Virus record (IMG/VR): IMGVR_UViG_3300025141_000928
Span: 1 to 21,295 of that record
DNA length: 21,295 bases
Direction: 5' to 3' (one strand)
Source: a virus
Shown: positions 11,979-17,298 of the stretch, one piece after another
Layout of the letters: each line of letters opens with the position of its first letter
Position numbering within the stretch: the stretch's first letter is position 1
Notes under the pieces: generated by a model
The model's database searches: none
The model's input: the letters and a program-made list of their open reading frames with translations, nothing else
Told to the model about the DNA's origin: nothing
Position numbers and translations under genes: made by a program

Positions 11979-13319
11979 ATGGCGTATAGAACAGGAGATG
12001 AACAAAGTGCTATTGATCTTATTGTAAAAAGAATTGGCTATGATGTAGCAGTACCGCCTGTTCCGGGCATACAAAATTTTGAAAAAATTCTTAGATTTTA
12101 CGGACTTCAAGATGGCAATAATAATTTTATTATACCCAATCCTACTTTTATCAAGTATGTAAGCAATTCTGATACAGTTTTGGCATTTGATTTTGTTGCA
12201 AATGCTTTTCTTGATTTTCAAAAATTATATGTAGATATGCTGCAAGCTGGCAAAATTTCAAAAGAGTCTGTATATACAAATATAATTTTTGAACCTTTTG
12301 AGGGGTGGTATAACTTTGAAGAAGAATATCGTAATAATGTTAGGTTTCTTATAAAACAAATTAATAGTGTTTTTTTAAGCACGCATGAAGAACAGAAAAA
12401 GATTATAAACATAGACAAATATATTGAATCGTTTATGGGATTTTTCCCCTTAATGGAATCGCTTACAGTAACTAGGGCTAAAATGTTATCTAGTGTATTA
12501 ACAAAAAGAAGTGCATCCGGCTTAGTAATAAAATTAGCAGATGAACAAGAAAATGATGATCAGGTTAAATGGGAAAAGTATTTAAATGATCCAAACTTTA
12601 AAGCAGTCGTAACGCTTGCGCAACAAACTGGATTTTATGTAAGTAAAAATTCTCCATGGACTTTGGTTGCAAATTTGGGTTCGCCAGTGATGAAATTTTA
12701 TATGCGCTTAAATGATTATGAAAAGGAAACAGAAGAGATTTTTAAAAATTTATTTTCGAAAGAACAGCTAAAATATGCTCAAAAAAATGCTGTATTGCCC
12801 TCTGAGACTGCCGATAAATTAAAAGAGCAAGCACAAATCGCCGCGAAAAAGAAAATTATGTCAACGACGAAGTTGCCTATAGAAAAAATATTTAAGAAAT
12901 ATTATTTTGAAACAGCCATGGCCGATTTTAATACTGTCAAAAACATGTTTTATTTTGGATATACTTCATTTTTGATAACAAATCCAGAAGTTAGAGAGAT
13001 AAAACGAGATGAGCATCTTGCTGACCATGCGGCGGGTGGTTACAAGGTTCGCCGGTATTGTCCAAAAGAACAGCAGACCATCCAAGTATACAAATCAAGA
13101 GAATATATTTCTGAAAATGGTTATAACAAAAAATTTGATGATTATTTTTTCTTAAAAATATTTCTTTTTCTTAAAAATTATGAAAATGGTAAAATATTTT
13201 CAGAAAATCGCCTCAAAGTACACCTTAAAAGTATTTCAAAGATCAAGAAAAGAATTGACACATCCGCAGCAATAATGTATATTAATAGTGTGTTTAAGGG
13301 ACTAGAGAGCGTTGCGTGA
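11979..13319 (+). CDS. Unrecognised protein at the end of the structural module
   Basis: 446 aa, not recognised. It is predicted largely alpha-helical, with many aromatic and Lys residues and no Cys until YCPKEQQ near residue 360. It is more A+T-rich than the tail genes before it. The ATG at 11979 follows AAGGAA (11965-11970). It is the last gene before the polymerase, and its stop overlaps the GTG start of that gene by three bases (GTGA). Its final 65 bases also contain a sigma70-type promoter for the polymerase. Position at the end of the tail operon suggests a virion or virion-assembly protein, but nothing in the sequence shows a specific role. Confidence 0.75.
   Translation: MAYRTGDEQSAIDLIVKRIGYDVAVPPVPGIQNFEKILRFYGLQDGNNNFIIPNPTFIKYVSNSDTVLAFDFVANAFLDFQKLYVDMLQAGKISKESVYTNIIFEPFEGWYNFEEEYRNNVRFLIKQINSVFLSTHEEQKKIINIDKYIESFMGFFPLMESLTVTRAKMLSSVLTKRSASGLVIKLADEQENDDQVKWEKYLNDPNFKAVVTLAQQTGFYVSKNSPWTLVANLGSPVMKFYMRLNDYEKETEEIFKNLFSKEQLKYAQKNAVLPSETADKLKEQAQIAAKKKIMSTTKLPIEKIFKKYYFETAMADFNTVKNMFYFGYTSFLITNPEVREIKRDEHLADHAAGGYKVRRYCPKEQQTIQVYKSREYISENGYNKKFDDYFFLKIFLFLKNYENGKIFSENRLKVHLKSISKIKKRIDTSAAIMYINSVFKGLESVA
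13255..13283 (+). promoter_or_regulatory. Sigma70-type promoter for the polymerase / FtsZ-like operon
   Basis: A perfect -35 TTGACA (13255-13260), a 17-base spacer and -10 TATATT (13278-13283) lie 33-60 bases upstream of the polymerase GTG, within the end of the preceding coding region. It marks the boundary between the structural and replication modules. Confidence 0.65.
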
Positions 13320-14491
13320 TTTTTCAATCTTTAGATAAAAAAAATAAATGTAAAGATATCTACTGTGGTGGCAAGATTTACAACAAGACTCCAGAAGATT
13401 TAACTGGTACGTGGGATTATGTTGATGTGCCCCACAATGTAGAATATGCAAAGTTGTATTGTGGCGGCCAATCCATTGAAGATGTTTGCCCCGATCGCTT
13501 AAAGGGACAATGGCTCAACGCAAGTCAGAAGCTTAAAGCGTATTTAAATTCTTTTATGCAAGCAAAAATTTCACTAGAAGAGCACTGTTTTTATGACTTA
13601 GTGCCACAACATTTTCTTTTGGATTTTTTCGAAGTGAAGAATGAAATAACAAAACATGTTTTTGACAATTGTGAGCGTCCTGAAAATTATGATTTTTTGT
13701 TGCAACTTACAAAAATTGTGGAAGACATTAAAAACAGACCTTTAAAGCTAAAAACGAGCAATTTAAACAACTTGGGGCATCAACTAGCAACTAGAAACTT
13801 TTTAAGGCGTCTAAAAGGAGCAAAAAAGCGCGTCAAATATAATATTTTTGGGACGAAAACAGGCAGGCTAACAACAGAGCCAAAATCTTTTCCTATTTTG
13901 ACGCTAAAAAAGGAATATCGTACCATTTTAGAACCAAATAACGATCTGTATGTGGAATTGGACTTTAATGCTGCTGAGCTAAGGACGCTTTTGGCTTTGT
14001 GCGACAAAGAACAACCAAAAGAAGATATACATGAGTGGAATGCTAAAAATGTATTTCGCGAGTCGCGGAAAGAGGCCAAAGAGCGTATTTTTGCTTGGCT
14101 GTATAATCCAGATTCTAAAGATTATTTAGCCAACAGAGCTTATGATAGAACAAGCATTAAAGAAAAGTATTGGGATGGTAAAATAGTAACAACGCCATTT
14201 GGCAGAAAAATAGAGGCGGATGAGTTTCATGCTTTAAACTACTTGATTCAAAGCACAACGGCAGACATGGTATTGCGGCAGTTGATTAAAGTTTATGAAT
14301 TGCTCAAAGAGCATAAGTCGCATGTAGCATTTGTGATACATGATTCGCTGGTGATCGATCTAGCGAAAGAAGACAAACACCTGTTGGAGAACATTTTTAA
14401 TGTTTTTTCGAAAACTGACTTGGGCGAATTCTTAATTTCAGTTAAGGTCGGCAAAAATTTTGGTCAAATGAAGGAAATAAAATGGACATAA
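13316..14491 (+). CDS. Compact family A DNA polymerase lacking an exonuclease domain
   Basis: 391 aa. The polymerase core motifs of E. coli Pol I family are in order: TGRLTTEPKSFPIL (182-195); motif A DFNAAELR (D216, E221, matching D705/E710); motif B R251, K255, F259 and Y263 with the exact 4-residue spacing of R754/K758/F762/Y766; PFGRK (294-298); Q312 in IQSTTAD; motif C IHDSLV, where D343 matches D882 but the next Glu is Ser344. The 35-residue gap between motif A and motif B is shorter than usual. There is no 3'-5' exonuclease domain. The first 70 residues instead hold a tandem YCGG...P..L.G.W repeat with Cys at 12, 17, 49 and 58. It starts at GTG 13316 overlapping the previous stop, and overlaps the next gene by 10 bases. 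T4 relatives normally use family B gp43. Rhodothermus phage RM378 also has a split family A polymerase. Activity is plausible; whether it is the replicase is unknown. Confidence 0.85.
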   Translation: MIFQSLDKKNKCKDIYCGGKIYNKTPEDLTGTWDYVDVPHNVEYAKLYCGGQSIEDVCPDRLKGQWLNASQKLKAYLNSFMQAKISLEEHCFYDLVPQHFLLDFFEVKNEITKHVFDNCERPENYDFLLQLTKIVEDIKNRPLKLKTSNLNNLGHQLATRNFLRRLKGAKKRVKYNIFGTKTGRLTTEPKSFPILTLKKEYRTILEPNNDLYVELDFNAAELRTLLALCDKEQPKEDIHEWNAKNVFRESRKEAKERIFAWLYNPDSKDYLANRAYDRTSIKEKYWDGKIVTTPFGRKIEADEFHALNYLIQSTTADMVLRQLIKVYELLKEHKSHVAFVIHDSLVIDLAKEDKHLLENIFNVFSKTDLGEFLISVKVGKNFGQMKEIKWT

Positions 14492-15336
14492 TTGGATTTG
14501 GCGGCGCCGGTTGCAACGTTGCAAAAACATTTAAAGATTATTCTCAATATAAGATTCATTATATAGACGTTGGCCTTCGCGGCGAGGACAACTATTCTCT
14601 TTTAAGAGCCAACACCATGGAAGAAGCAGAAACAAATGTGCCAAAATTTTCAAAACTTGTTAAAAAACTAAAAGGTGAAGTTGTTTTTATATGTGCTGGT
14701 GCCGGCATAAGCAGTGGTTCAATTTTAGGAACTTTAGAACAATTCAAGCACTTACCGGTAACTGTAATCTATATTAAGCCAGATTATGATCTTTTGGGCG
14801 AAAAAGAAAAACAAAGAGAAAGGGTTGTTCATGGAATATTACAACAATTTGCTAGAACGGGATTGCTCAAACGCATGTATTTGTTTGATAATACAAAAAT
14901 AGCGGAGATGCTGGGCGGGCTTTCGATAGTTGAATACCACCCTAAAATCAATCAAATGATCAGTAACTCTTTTCACATGTTGAATTATTTTAAAAATACA
15001 GATTCTATTATGACAAACGTTTCAGACCCTCAAGAAATTAACAGAATATCAACAGTTGGGGTTTACAATTTTGAGGAAGAGGCCGAAAAATATTTTTATG
15101 ACATTGCAAATCCGCGAGAAAAGCATTTTTATTTTGCTTTTAATGAAGAGACGCTAAATAAGGAAAAAAACCTTTTAAGTAAAATAAGTGAACAAATAAA
15201 AAGTGCTGGACAACCTGAGTTTACTGCTGTATCATATGATATAACGGCGACGACATATGAAGAAAATTTCGCATATATCGAAGCTCATACAAACTTCATT
15301 CAGGGCGAAAAAGTGGTTGACAAAAGCTCAGAATAG
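14482..15336 (+). CDS. Divergent FtsZ/tubulin-like GTPase-fold protein
   Basis: 284 aa. The N-terminus IIGFGGAGCNVA (3-14) matches the FtsZ nucleotide-binding T1 loop. FICAGAGISSGS (69-80) aligns with the GGGTG(S/T)G signature (T4 loop) but in degenerate form. LLGEKEKQRERVVHGILQQ (about 104-122) and LFDNTKI (134-140) match the following FtsZ/tubulin elements (F.FEG..R...A..GI..L and the N-D base-contact region). The catalytic T7 loop, normally N-x-D-x-x-D/E, is not recognisable (the region around 180-196 reads EINRISTVGVYNF). The C-terminal domain is short and there is no FtsZ-style tail. It starts at ATG 14482 with AAGGAA 5 bases before it, 10 bases inside the polymerase gene, so the two are translationally coupled. 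Fold fairly sure; GTP binding likely; polymerisation and hydrolysis open. Confidence 0.7.
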   Translation: MDIIGFGGAGCNVAKTFKDYSQYKIHYIDVGLRGEDNYSLLRANTMEEAETNVPKFSKLVKKLKGEVVFICAGAGISSGSILGTLEQFKHLPVTVIYIKPDYDLLGEKEKQRERVVHGILQQFARTGLLKRMYLFDNTKIAEMLGGLSIVEYHPKINQMISNSFHMLNYFKNTDSIMTNVSDPQEINRISTVGVYNFEEEAEKYFYDIANPREKHFYFAFNEETLNKEKNLLSKISEQIKSAGQPEFTAVSYDITATTYEENFAYIEAHTNFIQGEKVVDKSSE

Positions 15337-15344
15337 GTTATACT
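15317..15344 (+). promoter_or_regulatory. Sigma70-type promoter for the gp32-like gene
   Basis: TTGACA (15317-15322), a 16-base spacer and TATACT (15339-15344) lie at the end of the FtsZ-like coding region. The start of transcription would fall near 15351, exactly at the base of the hairpin that follows. Confidence 0.7.
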
Positions 15345-15353
15345 GTATATGCG

Positions 15354-15374
15354 GGCTGGGAAAACGACCCAGCC
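15354..15374 (+). promoter_or_regulatory. 5' leader hairpin of the gp32-like mRNA
   Basis: GGCTGGG, a 7-base loop (AAAACGA) and CCCAGCC form a perfect stem that would begin within about three bases of the predicted mRNA 5' end. It is followed by an unstructured A/U-rich stretch and AAGGAG (15384-15389). It could stabilise the transcript or take part in gp32 autoregulation. It has no T-run, so it is not a good terminator for the upstream gene. Confidence 0.55.
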
Positions 15375-15399
15375 TATAATTTTAAGGAGAAAAAATAAA

Positions 15400-16125
15400 A
15401 TGGCGTTAAACATGAAGAAAATGAAGAGCAAGATGTCGTCCCTGCAAAGCGGCGGCAACGGTAAGCGGTGGTTCTGGAAGCCGCAGGATGGTGAGCAGAC
15501 TGTTCGAATCGTTCCAGATTCAGATGGCGACCCCTTTCGGGAGTTCTGGTTTCATTACAACCTTGGCGATAAGCCCGGTTTCTTGAGCCCAAAGCGTAAT
15601 TTTGGCGAGGATTGTCCATTGGACACCTTTGTTCGCAAGCTTTGGGAGGATGGTTCTGATGAGTCCCGCGAGTTGGCGAAGAAGCTGATGGCAAAGCAGC
15701 GCTTCTTTTCCCCGGTCATCGTCCGCGGTGAAGAGGATCAAGGCGTTCGACTCTGGGGTTACAGCAAGACCGTTTACGAGAAGCTGTTGGGCCTCGTCCT
15801 GAATCCGGATTATGGCGATATTACTGATCCGGAAACTGGCACCGACCTTACCCTTCGATATGGTAAGAAGTCGGGGGCAATGTTCCCAAGCACGGACATT
15901 GACCCGCGTCGGCGATCTTCTGCTCTTACAGAAGACAAGGAGTTGGCGAAGGAATTCATCAACACTGAGATTGATTATGGTTCAATCTTTACTCGCAAGA
16001 CAACGGAAGAAGTCAAGGAAATGCTTGACGAATACCTTGCTGACAGCGATGGAAATGCTAATGTTGAAAAGTATAATACAGAAAATACGGTAGACAAGGC
16101 ATTTAATGAATTGCTAGCAAGCTAG
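15400..16125 (+). CDS. Single-stranded DNA-binding protein (gp32-like)
   Basis: This protein coats single-stranded DNA during replication and recombination and works with UvsX and the polymerase. It is 241 aa from ATG 15400 (T4 gp32 is 301). I chose this start because AAGGAG lies 10 bases before it. An in-frame upstream start at 15349 would lie at the predicted transcription start and read through the leader hairpin. The N-terminus is basic (MALNMKKMKSKM), then a beta-rich core with RWFWKPQDGEQTVRIVPD (about 23-40), EFWFHYNLG (48-56) and FFSPVIVRG (102-110). The zinc site of T4 (His and three Cys) is reduced: there is a single Cys in EDCPLD (C72). The C-terminal part is acidic, ending in DEYLADSDGNANVEKYN..., as in gp32 recruitment tails. 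Codon use (AAG, CTG, CGC) is more G+C-rich than neighbours, fitting high expression. Confidence 0.85.
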   Translation: MALNMKKMKSKMSSLQSGGNGKRWFWKPQDGEQTVRIVPDSDGDPFREFWFHYNLGDKPGFLSPKRNFGEDCPLDTFVRKLWEDGSDESRELAKKLMAKQRFFSPVIVRGEEDQGVRLWGYSKTVYEKLLGLVLNPDYGDITDPETGTDLTLRYGKKSGAMFPSTDIDPRRRSSALTEDKELAKEFINTEIDYGSIFTRKTTEEVKEMLDEYLADSDGNANVEKYNTENTVDKAFNELLAS

Positions 16126-16133
16126 GCTTGCAC

Positions 16134-16165
16134 AAAAGGGGGGGCTTCGGCCCCCCCTTACTTTT
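16134..16165 (+). terminator. Strong terminator after gp32 with UUCG tetraloop
   Basis: Seven G plus C, the loop TTCG, and G plus seven C form an 8-bp stem (16138-16157) with the very stable C(UUCG)G loop. AAAA stands upstream and TTACTTTT downstream. It would end most gp32 transcripts, leaving readthrough for uvsX. A further run of six G (16166-16171) lies just behind it. Confidence 0.85.
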
Positions 16166-16176
16166 GGGGGGCATTA

Positions 16177-17298
16177 ATGGCGAAAGTAAACAAAACGAGT
16201 GGGCGATTAAGTATCGCTGATATGAAAAAGCTGGTAAACAAGTCAGCGGGCGCAAATGTTGCGTTTTCTTTAAAGGACGAAAATCCAACTGAAGTTAATG
16301 AATTTATTCCAACCGGCTCTAAGTGGCTAGACGGTATTGTTCGCCGCGGCAAGTGGGGCGGCATTCCCGTCAGCAAGATCAGCGAGATCGCTGGTTTAGA
16401 AGCAACGGGCAAATCTTATATGGCAGCACAAGTTGCCGCCAATGCTCAAAAAATGGGCATTGATGTAATTTACTTTGATTCTGAAAGTGCTATTGACCCA
16501 TATTTTTTGGAAAGCGGGGGTTGTAACTTAGAAAATCTGTTATATATTCAGGCCCAATCGGTCGAGTTCGTTTTGGAAACAATTGAGAACCTTCTGGCAA
16601 ATAACGATAATAAAATGCTATTTATATGGGACAGTATGGCAATGACACCTTCAGTTAGTGACATTGAGAGCGACTTCAACCCACTATCAACGATGGCAGT
16701 AAAGCCTCGCATCCTTTCAAAGGGAATGGCAAAGCTGGTTCAGCCGATCGCCAATAAAAAGGCGACGTTACTGATCCTAAATCAGCTAAAAACGAACATC
16801 ACCAGAAGGCCCTCAGAGGCCATGACAACGCCTTATTTCACTCCGGGCGGTAAGGCCCTAGCTTATGCCTATTCGCTGCGTGTATGGCTCACGGCGAGGA
16901 AAGGAAAGGCTAGTTTCATCTATGATGATAAGGGCTTTCGCATCGGAACAGAAGTTAGGGCAAAGATCGAAAAAAGCCGCTTTGGGACACAAGGAAGAGA
17001 ATGCTCTTTTAAGATTCTTTGGGCCGGTGAAGATATCCACATTATGGACAAGGAAAGCTGGCTTGAAGCGATTAAGTCTTCAGAGTATTTAACTAACGCC
17101 GGCGCATGGTATACTTTACACTATGATGATAAGACATCTGAAAAGTTTCAAGGTAAAAATTGGCCTGAAAAACTTGAAGATGAAAAATTTTACAATAGAG
17201 TTGTGGAATTAATGGAACAAGAGATTGTTCTTAAATTTGATAAACGCGAGGGCAAAGCAGCAGATTTTTATGATGTTGATAATACAGAGTCTGAGTAA
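16177..17298 (+). CDS. uvsX: UvsX-like RecA-family recombinase
   Basis: This ATP-dependent recombinase forms filaments on single-stranded DNA displaced from gp32 and drives strand invasion and recombination-dependent replication. It is 373 aa (T4 UvsX 391). Walker A is GLEATGKS (73-80). The DSESAIDP motif (101-108) carries the RecA-type catalytic Glu (E103). Walker B is MLFIWDS (147-153, D152). A QLKTNI segment with a following TPGGKAL region corresponds to the DNA-binding loop 2 area. The C-terminal part is acidic. The ATG at 16177 lies 5 bases after a run of six G that is the only candidate ribosome site. No promoter is seen between gp32 and uvsX, so expression should depend on terminator readthrough. 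Identification is secure from the motifs and the neighbouring gp32. Confidence 0.92.
   Translation: MAKVNKTSGRLSIADMKKLVNKSAGANVAFSLKDENPTEVNEFIPTGSKWLDGIVRRGKWGGIPVSKISEIAGLEATGKSYMAAQVAANAQKMGIDVIYFDSESAIDPYFLESGGCNLENLLYIQAQSVEFVLETIENLLANNDNKMLFIWDSMAMTPSVSDIESDFNPLSTMAVKPRILSKGMAKLVQPIANKKATLLILNQLKTNITRRPSEAMTTPYFTPGGKALAYAYSLRVWLTARKGKASFIYDDKGFRIGTEVRAKIEKSRFGTQGRECSFKILWAGEDIHIMDKESWLEAIKSSEYLTNAGAWYTLHYDDKTSEKFQGKNWPEKLEDEKFYNRVVELMEQEIVLKFDKREGKAADFYDVDNTESE

Follow-up and report, generated by a model that had tools for sequence, protein, structure and literature searches.

A predicted tubulin/FtsZ-fold protein encoded directly behind a compact DNA polymerase in uncultured phages

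Tubulin-fold proteins are filament-forming GTPases of division, segregation and transport, so a viral locus in which such a fold is encoded directly behind a DNA polymerase gene raises the question of what the protein does there. The locus lies in a window of 21,295 nt of virus DNA (IMG/VR record IMGVR_UViG_3300025141_000928, positions 1-21,295), which is the whole stretch that was analysed and which, by its gene content, covers part of the genome of a T4-like tailed phage. Genes for tail sheath, tube, baseplate hub, tape measure and wedge precede the replication genes, and the order after the tail genes is an unknown gene called 'up', the polymerase gene (pol), the gene in question (X), gp32, UvsX, dCMP deaminase, a 5'-3' exonuclease and a DnaB-type helicase. 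The features of the locus are:

11979-13319, + strand: 'up', a conserved, fast-evolving gene found upstream of pol in all testable relatives
13255-13283, + strand: sigma-70-like promoter TTGACA-17-TATATT for pol-X (consensus match, 11/12)
13316-14491, + strand: pol, compact family-A DNA polymerase of 391 aa with a GTG start (Pfam DNA_pol_A; palm and fingers motifs)
14470-14491, + strand: ribosome-binding-like GAAGGAAAT, start of X (14482) and stop of pol (14489-14491), read from the sequence
14482-15336, + strand: X, 284-aa protein of predicted tubulin/FtsZ fold with an ATG start (AlphaFold2 model, PDB structural matches)
15317-15375, + strand: promoter-like TTGACA-16-TATACT plus hairpin between X and gp32 (sequence; enrichment in relatives)
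15400-16125, + strand: gp32-like ssDNA-binding protein, conserved start at 15400 (Pfam gp32, phrog_1192)
16177-17298, + strand: UvsX-like recombinase (phrog_97, E 2.4e-52)

The two reading frames and their 10-nt overlap, from which the original prediction of an FtsZ/tubulin-like protein coupled to a polymerase had started, were confirmed at 13316-14491 and 14482-15336. The start codon of X lies 10 nt before the end of the pol stop codon with GAAGGAAAT just upstream, and the two genes are likely to be translationally coupled. X is a real gene, since 134 distinct homologues were found in which Y23, Q121 and H165 are invariant. A hairpin made of G and C only (GGGGGGGCTTCGGCCCCCC) is present at 16138-16157 of the window, between gp32 and UvsX. 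In the 'up' protein, for which neither a family nor a PDB match was found, G218, F219 and P226 are invariant among relatives and W227 is nearly so.

The survey of relatives that had been proposed as a check returned the pol-X pair without exception wherever it could be tested. In all 129 distinct loci that hold both genes pol is upstream of X; the genes overlap in 70 of these and lie within 30 nt of each other in another 16. An upstream pol on the same strand accompanies 164 of 175 X ORFs, ten of the other 11 being at contig ends and the last (L039) having its start set too far upstream, and no pol without X was found among the testable X-family loci. About 40 loci carry an extra ORF between the two genes. 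A ~103-aa ORF that is MazG-like by motif only (KLVRDKIPEII, EExxE/ExxD-type), an identity unconfirmed by Pfam or NCBIfam, occupies this position at L058:9182-9493 and in about 35-40 further loci, roughly a quarter to a third. Large single insertions occur at L117:4854-5999, L174:4934-6001 and L123:3410-5962, and the ORFs in L117 and L174 resemble nucleotidyltransferases by eye. Between X and gp32 there is often a ~90-aa ORF (GTFxKKDGxxRxMxFVxLxDLP), as in L069, L076, L050 and ~30 others.

Promoter-like sites delimit the pair. Sigma-70-like sites occur before pol in 47% of 113 loci (2% in shuffles), where in the window the site falls within the 3' end of 'up', and at the end of X in 54% of 136 loci (3% in shuffles), where the site and its hairpin mark the end of the unit. 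Before X itself they are not enriched (4%, vs 2% in shuffles) and the window has none there; before 'up' they occur in only 1% of loci. Enrichment before pol and after X, and not before X, suggests that pol-X is its own two-gene transcription unit behind a host-type promoter, and this unit looks like an early operon, in line with the shared, probably early promoter that had been predicted for the two genes.

The first gene of this unit encodes a family-A polymerase, with a Pfam DNA_pol_A score of 58.9 bits (cut-off 34.3) and motifs A, B and C of palm and fingers. Its profile matches Klenow and Bst/Taq fragments at residues 163-253 and 302-386, and between the two matched blocks it is ~40 residues shorter than Klentaq (247 to 302 vs 355 to 450). 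The protein has no recognisable 3'-5' exonuclease domain, and a search of the long X-containing contigs for a PolA exonuclease gave no match. In eleven such contigs of 102-204 kb, which may be incomplete, neither a family-B polymerase nor a T4 clamp gp45 was found by searches with T4 or phiKZ as positive controls. The clamp-loader candidates inspected in X-containing contigs were ClpX, MoxR-like and PhoH-like proteins and were rejected.

As far as prediction can show, the second gene encodes a protein with the tubulin/FtsZ fold. An AlphaFold2 model built from a 60-sequence alignment reached pLDDT 93.5 and pTM 0.91 (pLDDT 56.5 from only 7 sequences), and its 50 best PDB matches are all CetZ, TubZ, FtsZ or tubulin, with Z from 24.4 to 21.1 and top values of 24.4 for CetZ, 23.0 for TubZ and 22.6 for FtsZ. 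The alignments span residues 1 to ~278, covering both domains of the predicted architecture (GTPase domain, core helix H7 and C-terminal domain); Foldseek agrees in placing the model in the tubulin superfamily, and PhuZ is among the matches in the viral library. The original assignment, C-terminal domain included, is thus borne out by the model, and the plain Rossmann fold lacking that domain, for which the fold check was also run, did not appear.

Sequence comparison is much quieter. Neither the window X protein nor its profile found anything significant in Pfam, PHROGs, NCBIfam or PDB sequences, including no match of the window protein above the curated Pfam Tubulin cut-off (PF00091), and this silence was not counted as absence of the fold. 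Eight of 60 family members do match PF00091 (best E 2e-4), and in 11 contigs with X, which may be incomplete, no further tubulin above the Pfam cut-off was found. In the profile-profile comparison that had been suggested, the X profile aligns with ten FtsZ proteins over 158 columns with T1 to H7 in register, at a weak score (E 0.0073; hhalign gives a probability of just 5%). The accepted pair of FtsZ and PhuZ, run as a control, came out similarly weak in this test (E 0.0028, probability 11%), and alignments of X to single FtsZ or PhuZ sequences were too weak for use.

The loops of X indicate how this fold may be used. The window protein has GFGGAGCN at T1, a degenerate AGAGISSGS at T4 and a DN element. 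Among the 134 homologues the T1 glycines G5, G7 and G10 are each kept in 130-132 and together in 128, and N12 of T1 in only 68. T1 and the DN element are present as first read, and the E/R element, also listed then as kept, is only partly so (E113 in 93/134, R114 in 77/134). The reading of a degenerate GGGTGSG loop holds for the family, whose T4 is GxGxISGAS and departs from the GGGTG(S/T)G signature. The catalytic T7 acid was likewise correctly described as not visible, none being invariant over the 134 homologues: residues 172-188 contain no invariant acid, and position 185 is acidic in 93. FtsZ helices H8 and H9 are absent from the model, in which H7 ends at 171 and S7 starts at 189 (elements matched by secondary structure), and the C-terminal tail is short and variable. 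From sequence and model together, X seems unable to hydrolyse GTP.

The nucleotide pocket has a history of its own. N137 and N157, kept in 123 and 125 of the 134 homologues, are assigned, by the profile alignment and by what is known of FtsZ and tubulin structures, to the positions at which T6 and H7 of FtsZ contact the base. Where position 75 of T4 is not acidic (120 members), both are always intact; the 13 members in which it is acidic have lost N137 in 11 cases and N157 in nine (Fisher p 2e-14 and 3e-11, uncorrected for relatedness). These losses take five to six parsimony steps and arose several times independently, and the lineages concerned still have X linked to pol. Such a pattern is expected if most X proteins bind guanine nucleotide and some lineages gave this binding up. 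Q121, R125, H165, Y23 and Y259 are jointly kept in 132 of the 134.

X is encoded in at least 581 viral contigs. Two different members used as tblastn queries matched none of 50,697 public phage records, and the genome contigs of 84,980 species gave as sole match one piece of a WOR-3 MAG, where up-pol-X-gp32-UvsX lies between runs of N in a 'chromosome' (L105:5514-10873, CP070664.1), probably as a scaffolding artefact. No report of the family was found in the open-access literature searched. Bacterial hosts are suggested by the sigma-70-like promoters together with the ClpX-like proteins encoded in two of the long phage contigs (L183 and L184). The whole up-pol-X-gp32-uvsX block is syntenic across relatives, and the same block with a similar compact polymerase occurs in Flavobacterium phage immuto, Microcystis phage Mel-JY01 and a 484-kb uncultured phage, in all three of which no X was detectable. 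Since these relatives share the block, the likely history is that X entered between pol and gp32 in the present lineage and has stayed there. A small conserved family (HRKKESNTLYTINALNELI) adjoins or lies near pol in the relatives that lack X (L210:1346-1801, L211:3813-4256, L212:5374-5763) and was not found among the ORFs of X loci.

What the computations show is the fold, a unit of two coupled genes, pol and X, with a host-type promoter in front of it, and the lack of H8/H9 and of an invariant T7 acid. Beyond this, the reading given about an even chance is that in X a protein of the tubulin/FtsZ fold has been adapted to act alongside the phage DNA polymerase as a non-hydrolysing scaffold or organiser. 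It would be made early together with the polymerase, and in most lineages would keep an unhydrolysed guanine nucleotide bound as a structural cofactor. As a dimer, or as a short polymer without dynamics, it may tether the compact polymerase, which has no exonuclease domain, or organise it at sites of replication close to DNA covered by gp32. Binding, and not GTP turnover, would be the essential activity, because the pocket was lost several times while the gene stayed behind pol. The genes around X are those of replication (gp32, UvsX, 5'-3' exonuclease, DnaB-type helicase), and the results together suggest a tubulin fold turned into a helper of DNA copying.

A more specific form of this proposal, put forward tentatively and held to be clearly less probable, makes X a replisome subunit, the first known tubulin-superfamily accessory or processivity factor of a DNA polymerase, with nucleotide binding structural and repeatedly lost. 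Several results temper the polymerase-partner reading in either form. In a mirror-tree comparison X-pol co-evolution was no stronger than X-UvsX (partial r 0.27 vs 0.29), the synteny of the entire block makes the adjacency of pol and X weaker evidence for physical partnership, and the relatives without X indicate that a similar compact polymerase can work without it. X as a clamp substitute is not specifically supported, a recognisable gp45 clamp being also absent from immuto, Mel-JY01 and the 484-kb phage.

Four other readings bear on the same evidence. It is unlikely that X serves host takeover early in infection by stopping division, as an FtsZ-like subunit that has no T7 or H8 and caps or poisons the filaments of host FtsZ. 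The early-type operon would fit such a role, a filament cap would be expected to look like X, with a nucleotide face and no T7 face, and FtsZ is a known phage target, as in T5 Hdi (PMC10714956) and lambda Kil (PMC3961180). However, X is only ~10-15% identical to FtsZ structures, is strictly behind pol in every testable genome and persists as a gene in the ~10% of members that have lost pocket residues, so that a decoy role is less likely. Equally doubtful is a regulatory role in place of a structural scaffold, in which X would bind nucleotides and control the polymerase or the nucleotide pool, or sense dNTP or GTP for them: the base-contact residues intact in most members, the MazG-like ORF (motif only) between pol and X in ~40 loci and the nearby dCMP deaminase gene would suit it, whereas the repeated loss of pocket residues without loss of X argues against it. 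A PhuZ/TubZ-type cytoskeletal tubulin, forming dynamic filaments that position phage DNA, is a little less likely still. The common fold, the TubZ match and the presence of PhuZ among the viral matches speak for it, but X lacks H8 and an invariant T7 acid, has a degenerate T4 and a short, variable tail, and the chimallin-type shell protein (phrog_4795) found in a phiKZ control was not found in the 11 X contigs of 102-204 kb, which may be incomplete. With no shell protein found and no invariant T7 acid, a PhuZ-type spindle is unlikely, and the comparison with PhuZ drawn in the original prediction does not extend to function. Finally, a Rossmann look-alike (an oxidoreductase or other nucleotide fold unrelated to tubulin) is hardly credible, since the weak listing of TrkA_N and pyridine-nucleotide oxidoreductases in single-sequence searches is overruled by full-length structural matches of the pLDDT 93.5 model that fall only within the tubulin superfamily.

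If the preferred reading of X as a polymerase scaffold is true, DNA replication has acquired the tubulin fold as a partner in a role outside the cytoskeleton, and the place of X in one two-gene operon makes that idea testable. The work also describes a replication module with a compact, exonuclease-free PolA, in which no PolB or T4-type clamp was found, from a widespread group of phages of which the records searched contain no cultured representative.

Among known systems, the closest structural match is archaeal CetZ (3zid, 4b45, 4b46; Z 24.4, rmsd 2.8 A over 254 residues), with which X has a GxGxAG-type T1 in common; unlike CetZ, X has neither H8/H9 nor an invariant T7 acid, its GGGTGTG loop is incomplete, and it is encoded in a phage polymerase operon. 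With FtsZ it shares the two-domain fold (Z up to 22.6), the T1 loop and Asn at the T6 and H7 base-contact places, and differs in its degenerate T4, missing T7/H8, ~10-15% identity and, for the window protein, the missing Pfam Tubulin match. PhuZ (phiKZ gp39) and TubZ are likewise phage- or plasmid-encoded tubulin folds (TubZ Z 23.0), and the phage tubulins described so far are filament GTPases of these two kinds (PMC4244570, PMC3678025); in shell-forming phages PhuZ, a GTPase, assembles into dynamic filaments (PMC4244570) and its T7 interface is competent (PMC3678025), whereas X occurs in polymerase operons with no shell protein found and no conserved T7 acid. As a phage polymerase accessory, if that interpretation is right, X would be analogous to the thioredoxin of T7 polymerase and to the T4 gp45 clamp, whose folds are unrelated to it. 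X shares the tubulin fold, departs from an active GTPase and differs in gene context, which sets it apart from FtsZ, TubZ and PhuZ and makes it, by its predicted fold, a new, probably non-catalytic branch of the tubulin/FtsZ superfamily.
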